From: Sinomonas gamaensis
Lineage (GTDB): Bacteria > Actinomycetota > Actinomycetes > Actinomycetales > Micrococcaceae
NCBI RefSeq assembly: GCF_005876955.1
Contig: NZ_SSCL01000012.1
Span: 62,001 to 126,000 of the forward strand
Direction of reading: 5' to 3'
DNA length: 64,000 bases
Positions 16,232 to 32,430 of the stretch are shown here, piece after piece. A program made the translations under genes and the position numbers. The notes beneath the pieces are model-generated. The model searched no databases, had not been told where the DNA came from, and saw only the letters and a program-made list of their open reading frames with translations. Positions within the stretch are counted from its first letter, which is position 1, and every line of letters starts with the position of its first letter.

Positions 16232-16756
16232 CTACCGGCCACCGCGGGGGAAGAACGGCCGCCTCTGGGATCGAGAAGTCCCAGAGCGCAACGACCGACC
16301 GATATGGGGTGCACGTCCGTCACCGCGCACGCTCCTCCCTCTTCGGCGTGGGAGTGCACCGGCTCGGAGGCCACGAGGGGCTCGTGTGTCCCGCTGCGCT
16401 CCGGTGAGCGCCTCGACGCCCGAGCTGACCGTGTCCTTCACCTTGTCCTTGACGCCCCTCAACGCATCGCCGACCGCGGCGAGGGTGGAATTCCTGCCCG
16501 TGGGCTTCGCCCTGTCCCTCCCCTTGGGGCCCCCGCCCTTCGCCTTGTCCTTGGCGCTCCTGCCCCTGGCCTTGTCCTTGGTGGGAGCGTTTCCCTCGGA
16601 GATGTCGTTGAGCTTCCCGACCAGCCCCTCTATCGAGTCGCCGACCTTGCCGAGGCCGCTGTTCACCAGCGATGACGCGTAGCTGCCAGCGGCATTCTTC
16701 AGCCCGCTCAGGTCGAGCTTTCCAGTCAGTGGAAGAGAGCTCCTCTTTTCGTCCAT
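16232..16756 (-). CDS. Small Lys/Gly-rich protein, probably truncated SRPBCC-family protein
   Basis: A strong RBS, GAGGAGG, stands five bases before the ATG at 16756. The first 115 residues (LPLTGKLDLSGLKNAAGSY, SIEGLVGKLNDISEG, then Lys/Gly-rich linker and VKDKVKDTVSSGVEALTG) resemble the low-complexity amphipathic leader found in actinobacterial SRPBCC (cyclase/dehydrase-like) proteins. The lipid-binding SRPBCC domain that normally follows is absent; instead the frame continues for about 55 Arg-rich residues that look non-native. I read it as a gene that has lost its 3' part, but a genuine short protein cannot be excluded. Confidence 0.5.
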   Translation of the reverse strand: MDEKRSSLPLTGKLDLSGLKNAAGSYASSLVNSGLGKVGDSIEGLVGKLNDISEGNAPTKDKARGRSAKDKAKGGGPKGRDRAKPTGRNSTLAAVGDALRGVKDKVKDTVSSGVEALTGAQRDTRAPRGLRAGALPRRRGRSVRGDGRAPHIGRSLRSGTSRSQRRPFFPRGGR

Positions 16757-21637: not shown

Positions 21638-21654
21638 CTTCCGCTGGATGGAAG
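21638..21654. promoter_or_regulatory. Candidate IclR operator, copy 1
   Basis: 17-bp inverted repeat CTTCCGCTGGATGGAAG, 43 bases before the HD-gene start. It agrees in 14 of 17 positions with the palindrome at 23227-23243, also at equal symmetry. The pair brackets the IclR gene. Confidence 0.6.
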
Positions 21655-21697
21655 CCGGCTCTGGCGCCCGGGGCTGCCGCCCCGTTCCACTTGACCT

Positions 21698-22396
21698 GTG
21701 TCCTCCAAGCTGTCCCCCGCCGCCAACTGCCTCGGCCGCGACCTCGCCTCCCACGTCCCGTCCGAAGCCGAGGGCGTCCTGTCCCTCGGCGAGGAACTCG
21801 GAGGCGAGCTCGCGCGGATCTGGCCTCTGGCAGTCCGGCACCTGAGGGTCCGCAGCAACGATGCCCATACCCTGTACGCCGTGGCGATTGCCCGGTCACT
21901 GCTCGCTGCGCACCCTGAGGCGGATGCCAGCGTGGTGCTTCCCGCGATCATGCTGCATGACGTGGGATGGTCGGAAGTGCCTCCGGACGAAGTGCTCGAG
22001 GCGATAGCCCCCGGCGGAGGCCGCCCGGACCTCGTCCTCCTCCACGAGAAGGAAGGAGCCAGGCTGGCCTCGGGGATTCTGTCCGCGGCGGGCATCGGTG
22101 GAGAGCGCGCGGCGAGGATCCTGGAGATCATCGACGGCCACGACTCGAGGCACGAGGCGCTCTCGATCGAGGATGCGATCGTCAAGGACGCGGACAAGAC
22201 GTGGCGCCTCACTCCCCACGGGCTCGACACGGTCATGGACTGGTTCGGCCTGGACCGCGCCGCCGCCCTGCGGCTGTGCAGCTCTCGCGTCCACGCGCAC
22301 CTGTTCACCGACGCCGCCAAGGCCCTCGCCCGCGGGCTCGCAGCGATCGAGTCGGCGAACCTCTGGGACGAGCGCAGAGCACTAGAGTTGCCCTGA
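21698..22396 (+). CDS. HD-domain phosphohydrolase, CreD-like paralogue 1
   Basis: 232 residues from GTG 21698. HD fold: HTLYAVAIARSLL, IMLHDVGWSEV with the metal-binding HD pair (His87-Asp88), then IIDGHDSRHEALSIEDAIV and DADKTWR. The second gene of this type at 30124-30837 shares the same blocks (LLHDTGW, IIDGHDTRH, EDALVRDADRLWR). In C. glutamicum CreD is the phosphohydrolase that removes the protecting phosphate after the P450 step in 4-cresol catabolism. This copy is transcribed with the IclR regulator (31-base gap), apart from the main operon, so it may act on another aryl phosphate or serve signalling. Assignment by context and similarity only. Confidence 0.8.
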   Translation: MSSKLSPAANCLGRDLASHVPSEAEGVLSLGEELGGELARIWPLAVRHLRVRSNDAHTLYAVAIARSLLAAHPEADASVVLPAIMLHDVGWSEVPPDEVLEAIAPGGGRPDLVLLHEKEGARLASGILSAAGIGGERAARILEIIDGHDSRHEALSIEDAIVKDADKTWRLTPHGLDTVMDWFGLDRAAALRLCSSRVHAHLFTDAAKALARGLAAIESANLWDERRALELP

Positions 22397-22427
22397 CCGG
22401 GTCCGCATCGTGGCATGAGGAGGCAGT

Positions 22428-23219
22428 ATGGCGGGCGGGAGCAGCGAGCCGGGCCGCAGCGTCGCCTCCAAGCTGCTCGCGCTCCTGTTCGCGTTCGAAT
22501 CCGGCCGGCGGTCGATGAGCCTCACTGAGCTCGCCGAAGCCGCCCAATTGCCGCTGACCACCACGCACCGGCTCGTCGGCGAGCTCGTCGAGTCGGGGGC
22601 CCTCGCGCGCGATCCGCAGGGCCGCATCCAGCTCGGAATCCGACTCTGGGAGCTGGGGCAGAACGCCGGCCGGGCCCTGCGGGACACGGCCAGGCCCTAC
22701 CTCCAGGATCTCTTCTCGCTCACCGGGGAGACCGCGCACCTCGCGATCCGCGAGGGCCACGAGGTCCTGTACATCGACCGCATCTACGGCACCAAGCGGG
22801 TGCCGCGCGCCTCCCGGGTAGGCGGCAGGCTGCCCATGCACGCCACCGCTGTGGGCAAGGTGATTCTCGCCTTCGAGGAGGACTGGGTCCGCGAGGCCTA
22901 CTTCAACCGCCACCTAGAGCAGCCCACCGCGTACACCCATGTGAACGCGGCCCGGCTCGCCGAAGAGCTCGTTCAGATCCGGGAGCAGGGCTATGCGACG
23001 ACGGCGGAGGAAGTGCGCCTTGGCTCGGCGTCGGTCGCCGTCCCTGTTTTCCACACGGGCCGGATCGGTGCAGGCCTGGGTCTCGTGGTGCTCTCCTCTC
23101 AAGCGGGCACGATGCTCCGCTATCTGCCCACCCTTCGCGGTATTTCGGCGCAGATCGAGCGGGCGACGGCGCACATCCCCTTGGAGACGCTGCGCGCCAA
23201 TGCCGGGCTTGGCCGATAG
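22428..23219 (+). CDS. IclR family transcriptional regulator
   Basis: 263 residues. Winged helix N-terminus (about 12-75): ASKLLALLFAFESGRRSMSL, TELAEAAQLPLTTTHRLVGEL, then the wing. The C-terminal effector domain follows (about 90-255): HLAIREGHEVLYIDRIYG, LPMHATAVGKVILAF and the EEVRLGSASVAVPVF block. IclR proteins respond to aromatic or small organic acids. It lies between two copies of a 17-bp palindrome and directly before the P450 operon, making it the likely controller of alkylphenol catabolism. Whether it represses or activates cannot be read from the sequence. Confidence 0.92.
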   Translation: MAGGSSEPGRSVASKLLALLFAFESGRRSMSLTELAEAAQLPLTTTHRLVGELVESGALARDPQGRIQLGIRLWELGQNAGRALRDTARPYLQDLFSLTGETAHLAIREGHEVLYIDRIYGTKRVPRASRVGGRLPMHATAVGKVILAFEEDWVREAYFNRHLEQPTAYTHVNAARLAEELVQIREQGYATTAEEVRLGSASVAVPVFHTGRIGAGLGLVVLSSQAGTMLRYLPTLRGISAQIERATAHIPLETLRANAGLGR

Positions 23220-23226
23220 CAATCCA

Positions 23227-23243
23227 CTTCCACTGAGTGGAAG
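23227..23243. promoter_or_regulatory. Candidate IclR operator, copy 2, before the P450 operon
   Basis: CTTCCACTGAGTGGAAG, perfect 8-bp arms around one central G, starting 7 bases after the IclR stop and 102 bases before the P450 start. Nearly the same as the site at 21638-21654. Confidence 0.65.
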
Positions 23244-23344
23244 GAGGGACAGAGCTTCCGCGCGTGATTCCGGCCACACTGGAGCAGATGCACCGGCAGG
23301 ACCACCGAGCCGCTGCCACAGGTCACGGAACCATAGGAGAACTG

Positions 23345-24661
23345 ATGTCACTGTCGACTCAGGGAACGGGATGCCCCTTCGGCTTCGGAGCGGAATCGTC
23401 GATGGCCACGGGAACGGCTCCCGCTGACGTGTCTTCCCCAGACCGCGCCCACCACGGCTACGAGCCGTTCCAGATGAAGGACCCTTTCCCGGCTTACGCC
23501 CGCCTCCGGGCCGAGGAGCCGGTCATGTACGACGAGCGGATCGACTACTACGTTGTGACGCGCTACGACGACATCAAAGCCGTCTTCGAGGACTGGGAGA
23601 CCTTCTCCTCCGAGAACGCCCAGGCGCCGGTCCGCAAGCGCGGTCCGCAAGCCACGCAGATCATGAACGAGGGCGGTTTCACCGCCTATTCGGGCCTCTC
23701 CGCCCGAATCCCCCCGGAGCACACGCGCATCCGCGGGATCGTCCAAAAGGCCTTCACGCCGCGGCGCTACAAGGCCCTCGAGCCCTTCATCCGCGCGAAC
23801 GTCGCGCAGCGGCTCGACGCGATGCTCGCCCGGGACACAGGGCACGGGGAGATCGTCCGGGATCTCGCCTACGAGGTTCCTACCATCACGATCCTCACGC
23901 TCATCGGCGAAGACCTCGCCCGGATCGACGACTACAAGCGCTGGTCCGACTCGCGCGCCGCCATGACGTGGGGCGATCTGGGCGACGAGGAGCAGATCCC
24001 CCACGCCCATAACTTGGTCGATTACTGGCAGGCGTGCCTCGCCTTGGTCGAGAAGGCGCACCGGGAAGGCGGCGACAACCTCGTCGCTGATCTTGTGAAG
24101 GCCCAGCAGGATGGCGCCGAGATCTCCGACCACGAGATCGCCTCGGTGGCCTACAGCCTCCTGTTCGCGGGCCACGAGACCACGACGACACTGATCTCCA
24201 ACGCGCTGCGCCTCCTGGCCGCAGACCCGGCAACCTGGGCCAAGCTCGTCGAGGACCCGAAGAGGATTCCCGGTGCGATCGACGAGGTGCTCCGCTACTC
24301 CGGCTCGATCGTGGCCTGGCGGCGCAAGGCCCTCAAGGACGCCGAGATCGGCGGCGTAAAGATCCCGGCAGGAGCAGGCATCCTGCTCGTCATGGGCTCC
24401 GCCAACCGTGACGAGAGCAAGTTCGAGGAGCCGGAGGTCTTCGACATCGCCCGCCCGAACGCCCGCGAGCACCTCTCGTTCGGCTTCGGAATCCACTACT
24501 GCCTCGGCAACATGCTCGCCAAGCTCCAGACGAAGATCGCCCTCGAGGAGGCCACGTCGAAGCTGCCCCACCTGAGGGTGGACGACCCCGAGAGCATCGA
24601 ATTCCGAGAGAACCTCTCCTTCCGCGTCCCCATCGCGGTTCCCGTCAGCTGGACCGAGTGA
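23345..24661 (+). CDS. creJ: Cytochrome P450, CreJ-like (phosphorylated alkylphenol hydroxylase)
   Basis: 438 residues from ATG 23345, RBS AGGAGA. All P450 signatures are present: I-helix LLFAGHETTTT (about 273-283), ExxR as EVLR (313-316), and heme loop FGFGIHYCLG (379-388) with Cys386 as thiolate ligand. No membrane anchor, so a soluble bacterial class I P450 that takes electrons from a ferredoxin; ferredoxin and reductase genes lie 4 kb downstream in the same operon. In C. glutamicum CreJ oxidises the methyl group of aryl-phosphate-protected 4-cresol. Substrate is inferred from the operon. First gene of the unit; its stop overlaps the next GTG by four bases. Confidence 0.88.
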   Translation: MSLSTQGTGCPFGFGAESSMATGTAPADVSSPDRAHHGYEPFQMKDPFPAYARLRAEEPVMYDERIDYYVVTRYDDIKAVFEDWETFSSENAQAPVRKRGPQATQIMNEGGFTAYSGLSARIPPEHTRIRGIVQKAFTPRRYKALEPFIRANVAQRLDAMLARDTGHGEIVRDLAYEVPTITILTLIGEDLARIDDYKRWSDSRAAMTWGDLGDEEQIPHAHNLVDYWQACLALVEKAHREGGDNLVADLVKAQQDGAEISDHEIASVAYSLLFAGHETTTTLISNALRLLAADPATWAKLVEDPKRIPGAIDEVLRYSGSIVAWRRKALKDAEIGGVKIPAGAGILLVMGSANRDESKFEEPEVFDIARPNAREHLSFGFGIHYCLGNMLAKLQTKIALEEATSKLPHLRVDDPESIEFRENLSFRVPIAVPVSWTE

Positions 24662-25776
24662 GCGAAGAAACCGTGGAGACCAACACCATGCAGGACACGC
24701 AGTACATCCAGTTCTTCGACGGGGGCACCGAGCCCACACTCGCCGCCCTCGGCGGCAAGGGGGCCTCCCTCGTGACGATGACCGCCGCGGGCATGCCGGT
24801 CCCGCCCGGCTTCGTCATCACGACGGCGCAGTTCGACGTGTTCATGGCCGAATCCGGGATCACGGGCCGAGTCCACGCGCTCCTGGCCGGGCTCAACCCA
24901 GACGACGTCGCCGAGGTCGACGCAGTCTCCGCCGCGATCCGCGCCGACATCGAGTCGTGCCCGGTCCCGGCCGACGCGCGGGCCCAGACGCTGACCGCTT
25001 ACGCGGCCCTCCAGTCCCGCTTCGACGAGCCGGTCCCGGTGGCCGTGCGCTCGAGCGCGACGGCGGAGGACCTCCCCGACGCCTCGTTCGCAGGCCAGCA
25101 GGACACATACCTGTGGCTCGAGGGCTTCGACGCCGTGGGCGAGCACATCCGCAAGTGCTGGGCCTCGCTCTACACCTCCCGCGCCATCACGTACCGCCTC
25201 AAGAACAACATCCCGGACGAGGGCCTCTCGATGGCCGTCGTGGTGCAGAAGATGGTCAACGCGAAGGCCTCGGGCGTCGCCATGACGCTCAACCCGGCCA
25301 ACGGGGACCGCTCCAAGATCACGATCGACGCGAGCTACGGCGTGGGCGAGATGGTCGTCTCCGGCCAGGTCACCCCGGACAACATCGTCCTGGACAAGGT
25401 CACCTTGGCCCTGGTCGCGGAGCACCTCGGGGACAAGCAAGCCGAACTGGTCCCCGATCCTGCCACGCGCCGGCTCGTGGAGCGCGAGGTCGACGCCGAT
25501 CGCCGCGCCCGCCGCTGCCTCACCGACGCGCAGCTCACCGCCGTCGCGATGCTCGCCAAGCGAGCCGAGAAGCACTACAAGTGCCCCCAGGACATCGAGT
25601 GGGCCCTCGACGCGGACCTGCCCGAGGACGAGAACCTCCTGCTCCTGCAGGCACGCCCAGAGACGGTCCACTCGGCCAAGCCCAAGGCGACACCTCAGCC
25701 AGCGGCGAGCACGCCGACGGCGGGCGGCGCCGCGACGCCTGGCTTCAGCTGGGGCTCCATCAAGCTCACTGCCTAG
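24658..25776 (+). CDS. PEP-synthase N-terminal-like ATP-binding subunit of a phenol kinase (CreI/CreH pair, PpsB-like)
   Basis: 372 residues; only the ATP-grasp half of PEP synthase/PPDK is present. Recognisable blocks: LGGKGASLVTMTAAGMPVPP, VRSSATAEDLPDASFAGQQD, VVVQKMVNAKASGVAMTLNP and DIEWALD near the end, LLLLQARPETV. The mobile phospho-His domain and the PEP-binding barrel are absent and lie on the next gene in altered form. This two-gene split is known for phenylphosphate synthase of Thauera (PpsA/PpsB) and the 4-cresol kinase CreH/CreI of C. glutamicum. The protein should use ATP to phosphorylate the His of its partner. Starts at GTG 24658, overlapping the P450 stop. Confidence 0.85.
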   Translation: MSEETVETNTMQDTQYIQFFDGGTEPTLAALGGKGASLVTMTAAGMPVPPGFVITTAQFDVFMAESGITGRVHALLAGLNPDDVAEVDAVSAAIRADIESCPVPADARAQTLTAYAALQSRFDEPVPVAVRSSATAEDLPDASFAGQQDTYLWLEGFDAVGEHIRKCWASLYTSRAITYRLKNNIPDEGLSMAVVVQKMVNAKASGVAMTLNPANGDRSKITIDASYGVGEMVVSGQVTPDNIVLDKVTLALVAEHLGDKQAELVPDPATRRLVEREVDADRRARRCLTDAQLTAVAMLAKRAEKHYKCPQDIEWALDADLPEDENLLLLQARPETVHSAKPKATPQPAASTPTAGGAATPGFSWGSIKLTA

Positions 25777-25830
25777 CCCACCACCCCTCAGAAGCACGAA
25801 GAGAAACACGAACAGAAAAAGGACACGCCA

Positions 25831-27720
25831 ATGTCGATGAAGTCCTTCCCGAAGCCCTCGGAGCTCCCGGTCCCCGCCGGCGCAGAAGGCTGGGAGAAGC
25901 TCTACCCCTACTACCTCGTGTTCCAGGACAAGCTCAGGGAGCAGGAGGACGCCAAGTTCTGGTTCTGCGACAGCCAGCACTGGCCCACGGTGTTCAAGCC
26001 GTTCGAGACGATCGGCGGGGAGTTCGCCGTCAAGTGCCTGGGCCAGTACAACGCCCGCCACCTCATGATCCCCAACGCCAACGGGATCGAATTCCGCATC
26101 CACCTCGGCTACCTCTACATGAGCCCCATCCCCGTGGCCGAGGACCAGATCGCCGAGCGCGTGCCGCTGTTCGAGGAACGCGTGGGCTACTACTTCCAGA
26201 ACTGGCCGCGGCTGCTCGAGGAATGGCACCGGAAGGTCCGCGGGACCATCGACGAGATGGAGAAGATCACCTTCGCCAAGCCGCCCGCCGTCGTCCCGAT
26301 CGGGGACATCCACTCGGGCAAGGCCATGGACGGTTCCGAGGTGCTCCTCGACAATTACGACCGCCTGATCCAGCTCGCGTACCAGAACTGGCAGTACCAC
26401 TTCGAGTTCCTCAACCTCGGCTACATCGCGTACCTGGACTTCTTCAACTTCTGCAAGGAGGTCTTCCCGAACATCCCCGACCAGTCGATTGCGACGATGG
26501 TCCAGGGCGTGGACATGGAGCTGTTCCGCCCGGACGACGAGCTCAAGGGCCTCGCGGCCCTCGCCGTCGAGCTCGGCCTCCAGCCCGCCTTCGCGGACAC
26601 GGACGACGCTGAGGGCACCCTCGCGGCGATCCAAGCCTCCCCGGGCGGCGAGCACTGGCTGAAGCGCTGGGACGAGGCGCACGAGCCGTGGTTCAACTTC
26701 ACCGTGGGCAACGGCTTCTACGGGCATGACAAGTACTGGAACGAGCACCCCGAGATCCCGCTGGGCTACATCAAGGACTACATCGCGCGGCTCGACGCGG
26801 GACAGCAGATCCTCCGTCCCGTCGAGGAGCTCGTCGCCGAGAAGGAGCGGATCGTCGAGGAGTACCGCGAGCTGCTCGACGGCGACATCTTGGCTCAGTT
26901 CGATGCCAAGCGCGCCCTCGCCGCTCAGTGCTACCCCTACGTGGAGAACCACAACTTCTACATCGAGCACTGGACCATGGGCGTGTTCTGGCGCAAGATC
27001 CGCGAACTCTCCCGGATCTTCCACGCCGAGGGCTTCTGGAACGAGCCGGACGATCTGCTCTACCTCGGCCGCAACGAGGTCCGCGACGCGCTCTTCGACC
27101 TCGTGACGTGGTGGGGCGTCGGTGCCGCACAGCCGATCGGCCCGAGCTATTGGCCTGAGGAGATCGAGCGGCGCCGCAAGATCGTCGACGCGCTCAAAAC
27201 CGCCCGCCCGGCGCCCGCGCTCAACACCCCGCCCGCGTCGATCACCGAACCGTTCACCCGCATGCTCTGGGGCATCACCACAGAGCAGGTCCAGCAGTGG
27301 CTCGGCGAGGGCGAAGCGGTCGACGGCGGCGGCCTGCGCGGCATGGCGGCATCGCCCGGGGTCGTGGAGGGCCCGGCCCGTGTGGTCACCGACGCGGACC
27401 AGCTCTCCGAGGTCCAGCAGGGCGAGATCCTCGTCGCCCCCGTCACCGCGCCCTCGTGGGGCCCGATCTTCGGCAAGATCGCCGCGACCGTCACGGATAT
27501 CGGCGGCATGATGAGCCACGCCGCGATCGTGTGCCGCGAGTACGGCCTCCCCGCCGTGACCGGCACCGGCTCGGCCTCCACGACCATCCGTACCGGCCAG
27601 CGGCTGCGGGTCGACGGGACGAAGGGCGTCGTGGAGATCCTCGACGCTCCCATTCTCGAAGGCCCGGGAGCCCACAGCCATGAGCATGGCGAGAACCTGC
27701 AGGAGCCCGCGCATGCCTGA
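25831..27720 (+). CDS. Phospho-His/phenol-binding subunit of phenol kinase (PpsA-like, CreH/CreI pair)
   Basis: 629 residues. The first ~490 residues are a large helical, aromatic-rich region (KFWFCDSQHWPTVFKPFE, QNWQYHFEFLNLGYIAYLDF) typical of phenylphosphate synthase PpsA and not of PEP synthase. The C-terminal ~130 residues are the PEP-utilising mobile domain: RGMAASPGVVEGPARVV, then GGMMSHAAIVCREYGLPAV with His563 as phosphorylation site. Phosphate would pass from ATP (partner subunit) via His563 to the phenol hydroxyl, giving an aryl phosphate. The C-terminal PEP-binding TIM barrel is absent. RBS AAAAGGA precedes ATG 25831. It overlaps the SDR gene by eight bases. Confidence 0.87.
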   Translation: MSMKSFPKPSELPVPAGAEGWEKLYPYYLVFQDKLREQEDAKFWFCDSQHWPTVFKPFETIGGEFAVKCLGQYNARHLMIPNANGIEFRIHLGYLYMSPIPVAEDQIAERVPLFEERVGYYFQNWPRLLEEWHRKVRGTIDEMEKITFAKPPAVVPIGDIHSGKAMDGSEVLLDNYDRLIQLAYQNWQYHFEFLNLGYIAYLDFFNFCKEVFPNIPDQSIATMVQGVDMELFRPDDELKGLAALAVELGLQPAFADTDDAEGTLAAIQASPGGEHWLKRWDEAHEPWFNFTVGNGFYGHDKYWNEHPEIPLGYIKDYIARLDAGQQILRPVEELVAEKERIVEEYRELLDGDILAQFDAKRALAAQCYPYVENHNFYIEHWTMGVFWRKIRELSRIFHAEGFWNEPDDLLYLGRNEVRDALFDLVTWWGVGAAQPIGPSYWPEEIERRRKIVDALKTARPAPALNTPPASITEPFTRMLWGITTEQVQQWLGEGEAVDGGGLRGMAASPGVVEGPARVVTDADQLSEVQQGEILVAPVTAPSWGPIFGKIAATVTDIGGMMSHAAIVCREYGLPAVTGTGSASTTIRTGQRLRVDGTKGVVEILDAPILEGPGAHSHEHGENLQEPAHA

Positions 27721-28468
27721 GCAGCGGACGGCAGTCATCACGGGCGCGGCCGGGGGGCTGGGCCGGGCCTTCGCCCTCGGCTTCGCCTCGCGCGGCTACC
27801 GGGTGGCAGCCGCCGACGTGAATGCAGCCGGGGCCGAGGAGACGGCACAGCTCGTCCGCGCGACAGGCGCCGGCAGGAACACAGCGATCGGCCTGAAGGT
27901 CGACGTCACCGATGTGGCGTCCACCGAGGCGATGGCCGCCGAAGCCGCCGAGTTCGGCAAGGGTCGGATCGACGTCGTCGTCAACAACGCCGCGATCTAC
28001 GCGACCGTGACCCGCAGCCCGTTCGAGCAGATCGACCCCGCGGAGTGGGACCTCGTGATGGGCGTGAACCTGAAAGGCCCGTGGCTCGTGACCCGGGCAG
28101 CCAGCCCGTACCTGGGCGAGGGCGGGCGGGTCATCAACCTCTCCAGCGCGACGATCTACTCCGGGTCCGAACAGTGGGCCCACTACGTGGCCAGCAAGGG
28201 AGGGGTCGTCGCACTGACCCGGGTCCTGGCGAAGGAACTCGGCCGGCGCGGCATCACCGTCAATGCGATCGCCCCCGGGTTCACCCTCACCGAGGCCAGC
28301 TACGGGCTCATGGAGAACGCCGAGACGTATGGGGTGGACCGGGGCGCGATCAAGCGGGCCAGCCGGCCCGAGGACATCGTCGGCGCCGCGCTCTTCCTCG
28401 CCAGCCCCGACTCCGCCTACATGACCGGCCAGACCCTCGTGGTCGACGGCGGCCGGCAGTTCATCTGA
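27713..28468 (+). CDS. creG: Short-chain dehydrogenase, CreG-like (hydroxybenzyl alcohol dehydrogenase)
   Basis: 251 residues from ATG 27713 with AGGAG seven bases upstream; upstream in-frame Met codons lie inside the kinase gene. Classical SDR: TGAAGGLG cofactor loop (10-17), DVTDVAS, NNAA, catalytic SerTyrLys with YVASK giving Tyr158 and Lys162, and APGFTLTEA. An Asp after the second beta-strand (AADVNAAG) favours NAD+. In the proposed pathway it oxidises 4-hydroxybenzyl alcohol (or its phosphate) to the aldehyde. The order of dephosphorylation and oxidation is not determined by the sequence. Confidence 0.85.
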   Translation: MPEQRTAVITGAAGGLGRAFALGFASRGYRVAAADVNAAGAEETAQLVRATGAGRNTAIGLKVDVTDVASTEAMAAEAAEFGKGRIDVVVNNAAIYATVTRSPFEQIDPAEWDLVMGVNLKGPWLVTRAASPYLGEGGRVINLSSATIYSGSEQWAHYVASKGGVVALTRVLAKELGRRGITVNAIAPGFTLTEASYGLMENAETYGVDRGAIKRASRPEDIVGAALFLASPDSAYMTGQTLVVDGGRQFI

Positions 28469-28496
28469 GAAACCCCTCACCAGGAGCACACGAGCC

Positions 28497-28820
28497 ATGA
28501 CCACCACCGTCCACTACACCGACGCGGAGGGCACCGTCCGCGAGATCGAGGGACGCCCCGGCGACTCCGTGATGGAGACCGCCGTGCGCAACGGCGTCCC
28601 CGGAATCGTCGCCGAATGCGGCGGCTCGCTCTCCTGCGCCACCTGCCACGTCTTCGTCCGCGAGGACTGCCTCGACAAGCTCCCGCCGATGGAGCCCATG
28701 GAGGATGAGATGCTCTACGGCACCGCAGTGGATCGCGAGGAGAACTCCCGCCTCTCCTGCCAGCTCAAGCTCACCGACGGGATGGACCTGTACGTGACCA
28801 CCCCCGAGACGCAGGTCTGA
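28497..28820 (+). CDS. creF: [2Fe-2S] ferredoxin, CreF-like
   Basis: 107 residues. Ligands Cys41, Cys47, Cys50 and Cys88 give the spacing C-x5-C-x2-C-x37-C of the putidaredoxin/adrenodoxin family, the usual partners of bacterial and mitochondrial P450s. Conserved context ECGGSLSCATCHVFV and RLSCQLKL. It should carry single electrons from the reductase encoded two bases downstream to the P450 of this operon. Confidence 0.92.
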   Translation: MTTTVHYTDAEGTVREIEGRPGDSVMETAVRNGVPGIVAECGGSLSCATCHVFVREDCLDKLPPMEPMEDEMLYGTAVDREENSRLSCQLKLTDGMDLYVTTPETQV

Positions 28821-28821
28821 G

Positions 28822-30096
28822 ATGGCTGCCTCGACCTCGCAGCCCACAGGGCTCCTCATCATCGGTGCGAGCCAGTCCGGCGTTCAGCTCGCCGTCTCCC
28901 TCCGTGCGCTCGGCTTCGAGGAGCCCATCACGCTCCTCGGCGAGGAGAACCACCGGCCGTATCAGCGCCCTGCGCTCTCGAAAGAGTGGCTCCAAGGCGA
29001 AGTCGGCAATGAGTCCCTCATCTTCCGCTCCAACGAGTACTGGGCCGAGCACCACGTCACCCTTGTCAAGGGCGAGCGCATCCTGCGGATCGCGAATAAT
29101 CGTGACGGTTCCGGCGTCGCCGTCGCCGAGTCCGGCGCCGAGTTCCCGTTCAAGCGCCTCGCGCTCACCGTGGGAGCCCGCGCCCGGAAACTCGCGGTCG
29201 ACGGCGCGGATCTCACCGGCGTCGTCTACCTCCGCAACGCCGACGACGCCCTGGCCCTCAAGGCCCTCGTCGGCGACGCGACCGACGTCGTCGTCATCGG
29301 CGGCGGGTTCATCGGCCTCGAGGCAGCGTCCAGCCTGAAGAAGATGGGCAAGAACGTCGTGGTGCTCGAGCACGGGCCTCGGCTCGTCGGCAGGGCCGTG
29401 GGCGAGGAGACCGCCGATTATTTCCTCGAGGCACACCGTGCCCGCGGACTCGACATCCGCCTCGACGCGCGCATCTCACGATTCATCCCGGAGTCGACGC
29501 CCGACGGCGGCAAGGCCGTTGCCGCCGTCGAACTCGCAGCCGGTGAGGTGCTTCCCGCGCAGATAGTGCTCGTGGGCATCGGCGTCATCCCGAACACGGA
29601 GCTTGCGGAGCAGATGGGCCTCGCGGTGGACAACGGGATCGTTGTGGACGCCCACGCCCTCGCCTCGGACGGCTCCACCGTGGCTGTGGGCGACTGCGCC
29701 AACATGCCCAACCCCGTGCCGGGCTCCCCTGCCGGCGAGCGCATCCGGCTCGAAAGCGTCAACAACGCCATCGAGCACGCCAAGGTCGCGGCGTACTCGC
29801 TCATGGGCCGGCGCGAGGAGTACGCCGGGATCCCCTGGTTCTGGTCCAATCAGGCCGATCTGAAGCTCCAGATCGCGGGCCTGTCGATGGGCTTCGACCA
29901 GACCGTCGTGCGGCGGGACGACGAGCGCGGGAAGTTCTCGGTCCTCTATTACCGCGGCGGAAGGATCATCGCCGCGGACTGCGTCAACGCGCCCCTGGAC
30001 TTCATGGCCGTCAAGAACGCCCTCGCGAAGGGCCAGAACATCCCCGCCGACGCGGCGGGCGATCCCACCGTCCAGCTCAAGTCGCTCGCCGGCTGA
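28822..30096 (+). CDS. creE: FAD-dependent NAD(P)H-ferredoxin reductase, CreE-like
   Basis: 424 residues. Putidaredoxin-reductase family: FAD-binding LLIIGASQSGVQLAVSL at the N-terminus, RPALSKEWLQGE, NAD-binding VVVIGGGFIGLEAASSL (about 154-170), VGIGVIPNTELAEQMGL, AVGDCANMP and the closing FWSNQADLKLQIAG typical of the C-terminal domain. In the first Rossmann loop the usual third Gly is Ser-Gly (GASQSG), common in the family. Two-base gap to the ferredoxin gene ensures coordinate synthesis of the P450 redox chain. Confidence 0.92.
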   Translation: MAASTSQPTGLLIIGASQSGVQLAVSLRALGFEEPITLLGEENHRPYQRPALSKEWLQGEVGNESLIFRSNEYWAEHHVTLVKGERILRIANNRDGSGVAVAESGAEFPFKRLALTVGARARKLAVDGADLTGVVYLRNADDALALKALVGDATDVVVIGGGFIGLEAASSLKKMGKNVVVLEHGPRLVGRAVGEETADYFLEAHRARGLDIRLDARISRFIPESTPDGGKAVAAVELAAGEVLPAQIVLVGIGVIPNTELAEQMGLAVDNGIVVDAHALASDGSTVAVGDCANMPNPVPGSPAGERIRLESVNNAIEHAKVAAYSLMGRREEYAGIPWFWSNQADLKLQIAGLSMGFDQTVVRRDDERGKFSVLYYRGGRIIAADCVNAPLDFMAVKNALAKGQNIPADAAGDPTVQLKSLAG

Positions 30097-30123
30097 GCCG
30101 CCTACCTCGCACCGGGAGGACGC

Positions 30124-30837
30124 ATGACCGAGAACACCATCGCCGTCGACCATGCCAAGGCCGAGGCCTTCGAGGCGGCCTACCCCGCCCGGCCGATCCC
30201 CGCTGAGGGCCACGTGGACACGCGGCCCATCAGCGAGACGCCGAGTGCCGCCCGCTCCCTCGACCCGCTCTGGCGAGCCGTGGCCACCTACACCCGCGCC
30301 CGCGGGAACGACATCCACCTGCCCATCTCGGTTGCCTACGCCGAGCGGCTGTGCGCCGCCTACCCCGACGCCGATCGGGAGCTCGTGCTCGTCGCGACCC
30401 TCCTGCATGACACCGGCTGGGCCCGAGTCGACGAGTCCCGCATCCTTTCCGAGGGCTTCACCGGGGACTGGCGCAAGGCCCAGATCCGCTACGAACACGA
30501 GCACCAGGGCTGCCTCGTGGCACGCGAAGTGCTGCCGGGGCTGGGGTACTCGGAGGAGTTCGTCGAGCGGGTCGTCGCCATCATCGATGGCCACGACACC
30601 CGACACGTGGCCTACTCCCTCGAGGACGCCCTCGTCCGGGACGCCGACCGGCTCTGGAGATTCGACCATGCCGGGATCGCCCTCGCCTCCTCGTGGTTCG
30701 GAATGGACCCAGCCAGCTACACCGACAGGCTCGCCGCGGAGATCGTGCCAGAACTCATCACCGCCGCGGCCGTCGAGATGGCCACCGCCGACCTCGCCCG
30801 CTCCAACGCCCTGCTCAAGACAGGAGTGCTCCGATGA
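30124..30837 (+). CDS. creD: HD-domain phosphohydrolase, CreD-like paralogue 2
   Basis: 237 residues, RBS GGGAGGA five bases before ATG. HD motif LLHDTGW (about 94-100), EHEHQGCLVAREVL, IIDGHDTRHVAYSLEDALV and DADRLWRF. It lies inside the main operon, overlapping the aldehyde dehydrogenase start by four bases, which is the expected place for CreD, the enzyme that releases free 4-hydroxybenzyl compounds from their phosphates. The paralogue at 21698-22396 has the same blocks but an unrelated N-terminal 45 residues. Named by context. Confidence 0.83.
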   Translation: MTENTIAVDHAKAEAFEAAYPARPIPAEGHVDTRPISETPSAARSLDPLWRAVATYTRARGNDIHLPISVAYAERLCAAYPDADRELVLVATLLHDTGWARVDESRILSEGFTGDWRKAQIRYEHEHQGCLVAREVLPGLGYSEEFVERVVAIIDGHDTRHVAYSLEDALVRDADRLWRFDHAGIALASSWFGMDPASYTDRLAAEIVPELITAAAVEMATADLARSNALLKTGVLR

Positions 30838-32399
30838 CCACCACGCCCGTCCAGCGGACCGAGAGCGGCGCGCCGGCGCCGTCGTCCGCCGATGCGCGGG
30901 CGAGGCGCACCTCGCTCGACCTGCCCTACACACTGGTGGACGACATGTTCATCGACGGCGCCTACACCCCCGCCTCCGGCGCCGGCCGCAACCCCGTCAC
31001 CGACCCGGCCACGGGCGAGGTCTGGGGCGGCGTGCCGGACGGCTCGGCGGAGGACCTCGACGCAGCAGTGGGCGCCGCACGCAGGGCGTTCGACGCCGGC
31101 CCCTGGCCCAGGTTCTCCCCCTCCCAGCGTGCGGCGTACCTGATGCGGATCGCGGACGAGATCGAGGCCCGCGCCGAGACCCTGGCCCTGACGAACACGC
31201 GTGAGAACGGGTCCCCGATCACCGAGACCCGAGGAGCCGCGGCGAACGCTGCAGGAATCTTCCGGTACTTCGCCACACTCGCCGAGTACCTCGAGAAAGA
31301 CGATGTGCGTCCCTTCCCGTTCGCGCCGGGCCAGGAGTCCGTGGTGCGGCGCGACCCGGTGGGCGTGTGCGCGCTGATCGCGCCGTGGAACTTCCCGATC
31401 AACCTCGTGGTCATCAAGCTCGCCCCCGCGCTGCTGGCAGGGTGCACGGCGGTGATCAAGCCGGCCTCGCCCACGCCGCTCTCGATCCGGTTCATCATCG
31501 ACGCCGTCGCCGCCGCAGGAGTGCCCGCCGGGGTCGTCAATCTCGTGACCGGATCGGGCCGCCTCGGCGACGCCCTCGTGAAGCACCCGGGCGTGGACAA
31601 GGTCGCCTTCACAGGCTCCACACCGGTGGGCCGGCGCATCGCCGCTGCCTGCGGTGAACTGCTGCGCCCGGTCACCCTCGAGCTCGGCGGGAAGTCCAGC
31701 GCCATCGTCCTCCCCGACGCCGACCTCGACTCCATGGCCAAGGTCCTCATCCGCTCCTCCATGCGCAACACCGGCCAGACCTGCTACATCTCCACCCGGA
31801 TCCTCGCCCCAGCCTCACGGCACGATGAGGTGGTGGACATGGCGACCTCGGTGATCTCGGCGGCACCCCAGGGCGACCCGCTCGACCCCGCCACCGTGTT
31901 CGGGCCCAGCGCAACCAAAGCGCAGTACGAGACCGTCATGCACTACATAGAGTCGGGACTCGCCGAAGGCGCAAGGGCCACGACGGGCGGCCGGGCCGCG
32001 TCGCCGGCCGACGGGCTCGAAGGAGGCTACTTCATCGAACCGACCGTGTTCGCCGACGTCACACCGGCCATGCGCGTGGCCCGGGAGGAGATCTTCGGGC
32101 CAGTCCTGACGATCCTGAAGTACGACGACGGCGGACCGGGCGGCGGGCTCGACGAGGCGGTCGCGCTGGCCAACAACACCGAATTCGGGCTCGGCGGGCT
32201 CGTCTTCTCCTCCGACCCCGACGCCGCCTTGGCAGTGGCAGACCGGGTGGACACCGGCTCGATCGGCATTAACTTCTTCGCCTCGAACCACTCCGCCCCC
32301 TTCGGAGGACGGCACGATTCCGGGCTCGGAACCGAGTACGGCATCGAGGGCCTTGCTGCCTACCTGACCTACAAGTCGATCCACCGGAACGCACGGTAG
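30834..32399 (+). CDS. creC: NAD(P)+-dependent aldehyde dehydrogenase, CreC-like
   Basis: 521 residues from ATG 30834 (RBS AGGAG). ALDH superfamily: APWNFPINLVVIKLAPALL, FTGSTPVGRRI, catalytic Glu in TLELGGKS, nucleophile Cys in NTGQTCYISTR, and EEIFGPVLTILKYD. A non-conserved leader of about 35 residues precedes the domain. Last gene of the operon; predicted to oxidise 4-hydroxybenzaldehyde (or a related arylaldehyde) to the acid, which would enter the protocatechuate route encoded elsewhere. A hairpin terminator follows 15 bases after the stop. Confidence 0.88.
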   Translation: MTTTPVQRTESGAPAPSSADARARRTSLDLPYTLVDDMFIDGAYTPASGAGRNPVTDPATGEVWGGVPDGSAEDLDAAVGAARRAFDAGPWPRFSPSQRAAYLMRIADEIEARAETLALTNTRENGSPITETRGAAANAAGIFRYFATLAEYLEKDDVRPFPFAPGQESVVRRDPVGVCALIAPWNFPINLVVIKLAPALLAGCTAVIKPASPTPLSIRFIIDAVAAAGVPAGVVNLVTGSGRLGDALVKHPGVDKVAFTGSTPVGRRIAAACGELLRPVTLELGGKSSAIVLPDADLDSMAKVLIRSSMRNTGQTCYISTRILAPASRHDEVVDMATSVISAAPQGDPLDPATVFGPSATKAQYETVMHYIESGLAEGARATTGGRAASPADGLEGGYFIEPTVFADVTPAMRVAREEIFGPVLTILKYDDGGPGGGLDEAVALANNTEFGLGGLVFSSDPDAALAVADRVDTGSIGINFFASNHSAPFGGRHDSGLGTEYGIEGLAAYLTYKSIHRNAR

Positions 32400-32413
32400 G
32401 CCTGCACGCACGG

Positions 32414-32430
32414 GCGCCTCTGGGAGGCGC
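32414..32430. terminator. Hairpin at end of the cre-like operon
   Basis: Perfect 7-bp stem GCGCCTC/GAGGCGC with TGG loop, 15 bases after the aldehyde dehydrogenase stop. Confidence 0.6.

Follow-up and report, generated by a model that had tools for sequence, protein, structure and literature searches.

A ten-gene block in DNA of Sinomonas gamaensis (contig NZ_SSCL01000012.1 of assembly GCF_005876955.1; the 64,000 nucleotides analysed are called the window, and positions follow its numbering) very probably forms a regulon for the catabolism of 4-alkylphenols, of the cre type described in Corynebacterium glutamicum. It appears to include a second CreD-like phosphohydrolase, the product of a gene that we call HD1. 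Judged by gene content, gene order, similarity, operator conservation and co-occurrence, all read from the sequence, the core of the cluster is already known in kind, and HD1 with its predicted operator would make it a variant.

Gene layout and match to the cre pathway

All ten genes lie on the + strand. HD1 (21698–22396; PF01966) and the gene of an IclR-family regulator (22428–23219; PF01614 and PF09339) are followed by creJ, coding for a cytochrome P450 (about 23345 to 24661); creI, the ATP-grasp (PPDK_N) half of a predicted aryl kinase (24658–25776; PF01326); and creH, the other kinase half, with the phosphoenolpyruvate (PEP)-utiliser (swivel) domain (25831–27720; PF00391, with 1244 bits to NF006150). 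Downstream of these are creG, a short-chain dehydrogenase/reductase (SDR) of the putative alcohol dehydrogenase step (27680, or 27713, to 28468; PF13561); creF, a [2Fe-2S] ferredoxin (28497–28820; PF00111); creE, a ferredoxin reductase (28822–30096; PF07992 and PF14759); creD, a second HD-domain protein and putative aryl-phosphate phosphohydrolase (30124–30837; PF01966); and creC, an aldehyde dehydrogenase (30834–32399; PF00171). By these assignments the cre cluster at 23345–32399 is complete, its genes being ordered creJIHGFEDC. Profile matches placed all the genes that an earlier note on this DNA had listed where it had put them and on the + strand, and the overlaps that it described are present, GTGA between the P450 and kinase genes and ATGA between the second HD and aldehyde dehydrogenase genes. 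Two terminator-like sites were found, where shuffled sequence would give 3.7; they fall within the HD1 and IclR genes, and there are none between the cre genes.

The window proteins were compared by tblastn with the C. glutamicum locus (genome G457). Over most of each protein the identities were 73% (J), 65% (I), 77% (H), 73% (G), 72% (F), 69% (E), 66% (D) and 70% (C), and the genes are collinear from cg0645 (creJ) to cg0637 (creC). The locus tags and functions of this set, cg0637–cg0645 or creCDEFGHIJ, are those of PMC7764795. The one-to-one correspondence to the Cre set that had been asserted from the sequence is thus borne out by eight counterparts. The earlier note had also listed gene order among the differences from the described cluster; since the order is the same as that of cg0645–cg0637, this statement was wrong and is dropped.

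Neither the P450 nor the kinase proved nearer to non-phenol families, an outcome that would have spoken against the assignment. The best solved relatives of the window P450 are 5xjn and 5gwe (683 bits, vs 251 bits for the next entry), and the P450 of the C. glutamicum locus is identical to PDB chain 5xjn over 398 residues. We take 5xjn and 5gwe to be CreJ, the PDB table entry reading 'Cytochrome P450' only. CreH shares 77% identity with its C. glutamicum counterpart, as against 44–47% with a second kinase type present in other genomes. The 4.32 Mb host genome contains three P450 matches.

Use of 4-cresol by C. glutamicum has been reported (PMC5070772), with CreHI phosphorylating, CreJ together with CreE and CreF oxidising, CreD dephosphorylating, and CreG and CreC oxidising (PMC7764795, PMC9549646, PMC12167813). 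Similarity and collinearity support the same sequence of phosphorylation, oxidation and dephosphorylation in Sinomonas, as had been suggested before, and from them we infer the enzyme activities and the use of p-cresol or a longer 4-alkylphenol. CreHI would spend ATP to place a phosphate on the phenol oxygen; CreJ, with electrons from CreE and CreF, would oxidise the para-methyl group of the aryl phosphate; CreD would take the phosphate off; and CreG and CreC would complete the oxidation to 4-hydroxybenzoate. PobA (4-hydroxybenzoate hydroxylase; 493.6 bits, cut-off 351) and PcaH (protocatechuate dioxygenase; 337.5 bits, cut-off 296.4), both matched elsewhere in the same genome, would carry 4-hydroxybenzoate further. 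HD1 would be a second CreD-like phosphohydrolase, with an aryl phosphate from this pathway as its substrate, and the IclR protein would most likely control two predicted transcription units, HD1–IclR and creJ–C, through the palindrome TTCCRYYNRRYGGAA.

Distribution of cre clusters

A scan of species genomes with CreH yielded 453 relatives, from which the 80 loci with the best CreH matches were kept. These loci are related to one another and some are duplicated (e.g. L055 and L164). The set creJIHGFEDC is complete and collinear in 70 of the 80, and so consistent a recurrence of these eight genes in one order shows that the set is not due to chance. Clusters of the cre type are common, and the core of the Sinomonas cluster is ordinary.

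Among the ten incomplete loci, a contig end explains seven (L029, L032, L039, L068, L073, L078 and L083), and three appear to have real gaps. There is no creJ or creI match in the 10 kb upstream of creH in Sinomonas notoginsengisoli (L006, 1–12500), nor in the 7.4 kb upstream of it in Streptomyces sp. SID13031 (L081, 1–9217). Microbacterium lacus (L080, 5921–13390) has a cre cluster with no creF or creE match in the fetched stretch; its P450 may borrow redox partners. Arthrobacter sp. C2 carries two cre clusters on one chromosome (L035 and L046), with HD1 beside only one of them in the fetched stretches.

HD1 as a sister class of CreD

HD1 shares 38% identity with the window CreD over 172 residues. 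Among 57 HD1 and 83 CreD sequences, some of which share a genome, HD1 and CreD have an identical residue at 32 positions, each conserved in at least 95% of either class; the residues of the HD motif are among them. H57, H87-D88, H116, D164 and others are kept in at least 95% of the HD1 and CreD rows and are invariant in a 42-row alignment; the motif suggests that the HD motif residues serve as ligands. Eight further positions are fixed differently in HD1 and CreD, for example V113/R122, A190/Y199 and K163/R172. In the tree, one branch of length 3.2 with support 100/100 parts HD1 from CreD, so that HD1 does not fall inside the CreD clade; only this split is used, the root being arbitrary, the two outgroup rows being ill-chosen longest open frames for which membership of the HD proteins is not shown, and CreD_L079 having been omitted. 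Because this branch is long and well supported, HD1 is best read as a sister class of CreD, a deep paralogue and not a second copy.

The structural models are of high predicted quality, with predicted local distance difference test (pLDDT) values of 94.7 for HD1 and 93.7 for CreD. Since the class-specific residues differ, they suggest different pockets, and our guess is that a distinct phosphate ester is likelier than plain redundancy. We propose that HD1 be read as the second aryl-phosphate phosphohydrolase of the cre regulon. A literature search, in which subscription papers were not covered and full texts not read through, found no report of a second HD gene in cre clusters.

Co-occurrence and genomic position of HD1

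With thresholds of at least 200 bits for HD1 and at least 1000 bits for CreH, 32 of 197 genomes of the family have both, four have HD1 alone, six have CreH alone and 155 have neither (Fisher p 2e-26, not corrected for relatedness). In this count G332, with a partial HD1 (52% over 110 residues), was scored as having neither, G260, with a 46% kinase only, as having no CreH, and G360, in which CreH is cut, as having it. Within the genus, HD1 occurs in nine of 15 genomes, all nine of which also have a weaker CreD-level match; the remaining six have neither. Fifty of the 80 CreH loci led to 49 genomes, of which 30 have a strong HD1 match and G054 a partial one.

At the level of the locus, HD1 stands within the same fetched stretch as cre in 40 of the 80 loci (at least 45% identity over half its length), and in several it directly follows pobA or creC. 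In L055 it is on the opposite strand. In the six Sinomonas relatives that were fetched, an IclR gene 90% identical to that of the window comes directly after HD1 in every case, the pair being 39–126 kb from creH in five genomes and on another contig in one. In one of the four genomes with HD1 alone, HD1 is immediately followed by a broken remnant of creC (L150, 8004–9515), probably left behind when a cre cluster was lost.

Operator-like palindromes and the IclR regulator

A palindrome, noticed in the list of inverted repeats and in the printed upstream sequences, lies 118 bp before creJ (CTTCCACTGAGTGGAAG, 23227–23243). A similar one, with three mismatches to it, lies 60 bp before HD1 (CTTCCGCTGGATGGAAG, 21638–21654), its first base being the left boundary that the earlier note had drawn for the cluster; neither is assigned a strand. 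Shared 9-mers between the creJ and HD1 upstream regions gave nothing. At up to three mismatches the window holds three matches to the creJ palindrome, with 0.15 expected. The third palindrome, TTTCCAGTCAGTGGAAG (16719–16735, two mismatches), has no visible link to cre or aromatic genes.

The same site recurs in the relatives. Scored as the best match to the window creJ palindrome, with at least 12 of 16 positions agreeing (400 bp upstream in the case of creJ), it is found upstream of creJ in 65 of 78 cases, upstream of HD1 in 32 of 56 and upstream of IclR in none of 77, vs 2.9% of 5981 random segments, a background that still contains real sites. Before creJ it lies at about -115 to -128 in most Micrococcaceae, at -154 to -171 in Corynebacterium and frequently nearer to the gene in the remaining groups. 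Its core occurs with at most one mismatch in the -135 to -100 band in 39 of 77 regions (31 of 1309 controls), the remainder having it at other distances or not at all. Among 54 distinct regions upstream of HD1, 22 have the core TTCC-N7-GGAA exactly at -64 to -52 and 40 have it there with at most one mismatch, as against 0 and 5, respectively, of 2484 control windows (L164 was removed for these core tests only). The HD1 site keeps its place near -60 even where HD1 is 39–126 kb away from cre. In both the creJ and the HD1 upstream sets, then, an operator-type palindrome stands near the genes that it would regulate, at a conserved position. A strict form of the pattern has 91 sites in the 2.05 Mb of fetched DNA, where mononucleotide shuffling predicts 0.2: 57 upstream of creJ, 17 upstream of HD1 and 17 elsewhere. 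The last group includes two before creJ in loci without stored positions (L185 and L188), five before pobA (L016, L060, L071, L074 and L075) and one before pcaH (L069).

A homologue of the IclR gene stands upstream of creJ in most loci. The IclR gene had been put forward as a feature distinguishing this cluster from the described one, a suggestion that we reject because Corynebacterium relatives have such genes upstream of creJ as well, at 55–61% identity in L041 (C. gallinarum), L148, L149 and L180 and at 61, 58 and 47% in L047, L048 and L068; C. glutamicum itself is not among the loci read for this. As for the operator, GenR, an IclR-family regulator of C. glutamicum, is listed with the operator ATTCC-N7(5)-GGAAT (PMC8222616), which has a geometry like that of the Sinomonas palindrome. 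GenR controls the use of gentisate and 3-hydroxybenzoate, whereas the Sinomonas IclR gene adjoins the cre genes. The host genome has further palindromes of the TTCC-N7-GGAA kind, one of them 57 bp ahead of the pobA frame and one some 300 bp ahead of the part of pcaH that was matched. A different IclR gene, 34% identical to that of the window, adjoins pobA. In view of these sites and of the GenR operator, the predicted pairing of the cre-linked IclR protein with the palindrome is likely but not unique: similar sites may be common to IclR proteins that resemble one another.

G512 and kinases of the Hpe type

The best sign that HD1 can do the job of CreD comes from genome G512 (L185:4–12304), whose cre-like cluster consists of HD1, IclR, J, G, F, E and C, with neither creD nor creHI of its own, so that HD1 is its only HD gene. 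Its J protein is 58% identical to the window CreJ. Adjoining the cluster, in the opposite direction, is a second-type kinase (46 and 41%), after which come frames that by eye resemble a biotin carboxylase and a carboxyltransferase, as in the hydroxyphenylethanone (Hpe) cluster. In searches of the whole genome, made with HD1 and CreH but not with CreI, HD1 is the sole match to the HD1 query at E <= 1e-20 and the second-type kinase the sole match to CreH at E <= 1e-100. Since the rate of HpeHI on cresol is reported as nearly one quarter of that on 4-hydroxyacetophenone (PMC12167813), one Hpe-like kinase could serve both G512 clusters.

The Hpe pathway (hpeHICBADEF of Rhodococcus rhodochrous GD02) has a homologous two-part kinase and the same logic of phosphorylating, modifying and dephosphorylating (PMC9618137, PMC12167813), but a carboxylase in place of the P450 and a NagD-related phosphatase (PMC9618137). 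PpsAB, the phenylphosphate synthase of Thauera and Aromatoleum, is likewise a two-component dikinase homologous to CreHI (PMC12167813), but it belongs to anaerobic phenol catabolism. In L166:4421–14521 an Hpe-type cluster (kinase halves, biotin carboxylase, carboxyltransferase and AMP ligase) contains an HD gene of the CreD class, with 66% identity to the window CreD; the Hpe cluster as described has the NagD-related phosphatase instead. A further clade of CreH-like kinases, at 51–55% identity, occurs in 14 of 394 genomes of the class. Five of its loci were fetched. Its neighbours, assigned by Pfam on L183 (4005–11262) and L184 (6747–13137) and by eye on L181, are a Rieske/LigXa_C protein, extradiol-type glyoxalase-fold proteins and a histidine-phosphatase-family protein. 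These loci have no match to the window P450 or HD proteins. They are possibly an undescribed aryl-phosphate route; no fitting paper turned up in a literature search on Rieske plus aryl-phosphate pathways.

Perhaps the actinobacterial aerobic pathways that use phosphate as a protecting group are modular, with kinase, oxidising module and phosphatase exchanged between the cre, Hpe and third, Rieske/extradiol types. HD1 would then be a second class of phosphohydrolase with a substrate of its own (e.g. an aldehyde or acid phosphate, or unreacted aryl phosphate), replacing CreD in some lineages while sharing the Hpe kinase. We consider this wider scheme plausible, if somewhat short of probable.

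Alternative explanations

Several results weigh against HD1 and the IclR protein being fixed parts of a cre regulon. HD1 is missing from the six CreH-positive family genomes mentioned above and is thus dispensable, while G332 has a partial HD1 and no CreH. In three of the genomes with HD1 alone (G366, G394 and G418, the last 71% complete and on a short contig) the fetched stretches L151, L152 and L153 contain no cre remnant. An HD1 orthologue was found in none of 242 Corynebacterium genomes, 15 of which have a CreD-level match (32–39% to HD1). C. glutamicum is among the 242, although its use of 4-cresol is reported. The second HD gene is a real difference from the C. glutamicum cluster, as it had earlier been taken to be. 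Fourteen of the 54 distinct HD1 upstream regions have no palindrome near -60. In three of these HD1 comes right after a site-bearing pobA (L060, L071 and L075), in two it follows creC (L036 and L045), two have a weaker match at -77 (L056 and L059), and seven are unexplained. The palindromes at pobA and pcaH, with the second IclR gene beside pobA, leave the pairing of regulator and operator less than unique. The folds nearest to the HD1 model are generic HD hydrolases, e.g. 2pjq and YpgQ, and Foldseek with the HD1 and CreD models gave such hydrolases, with no match at E <= 0.001.

The last result would suit HD1 being a regulatory or housekeeping HD hydrolase, for instance of a nucleotide, that rides with the IclR gene, as would its place beside IclR and not creJ in the six Sinomonas relatives. 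Against this stand the 32 conserved positions that HD1 has in common with CreD, the presence of HD1 without CreD in the G512 cluster, and the loci where it comes directly after pobA or creC; we regard the housekeeping role as unlikely. Still less probable is that HD1 is superfluous, a decaying copy of CreD that lacks any separate function. Such a copy could be missing from other genomes with CreH or CreD, as HD1 is, but it would hardly keep the HD motif and its class-specific residues in at least 95% of 57 sequences, or a conserved palindrome upstream.

For the cluster as a whole, the alternative with the most weight, to which we give a modest chance, is that it works as described with another 4-alkylphenol or a lignin-type phenol, and not p-cresol, as its main natural substrate. 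CreJ has reportedly been crystallised with longer alkylphenyl phosphates. A system based on the Cre enzymes has also been called an alkylphenol oxidation system (PMC9549646). On the other side, J, H and I are 65–77% identical to the C. glutamicum enzymes for 4-cresol, and the stretch SSENAQAPVRKRGPQATQIM of the P450 is identical to 5xjn. That the kinase is instead of the Hpe type and the cluster degrades acetovanillone is very improbable and already disfavoured: HpeHI and CreHI are homologues (PMC9618137), but the window proteins are 77% and 65% identical to CreH and CreI, vs 44–47% between the window CreH and the second kinase type, for which reason an Hpe-type identity is rejected, and no match to a biotin carboxylase or other hpeCBA-type protein occurs among the ten proteins that the block encodes.

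Significance

The gene set by which C. glutamicum handles 4-cresol is widespread in actinobacteria, and the pathway gains a concrete candidate operator that can be tested. What is new relative to the characterised C. glutamicum example is a conserved second phosphatase-like gene, HD1, with a predicted operator of its own. HD1 and the swapped kinase of G512 make it directly testable which enzyme takes off the protecting phosphate and at what point, a matter that bears on the building of alkylphenol oxidation catalysts from Cre enzymes.

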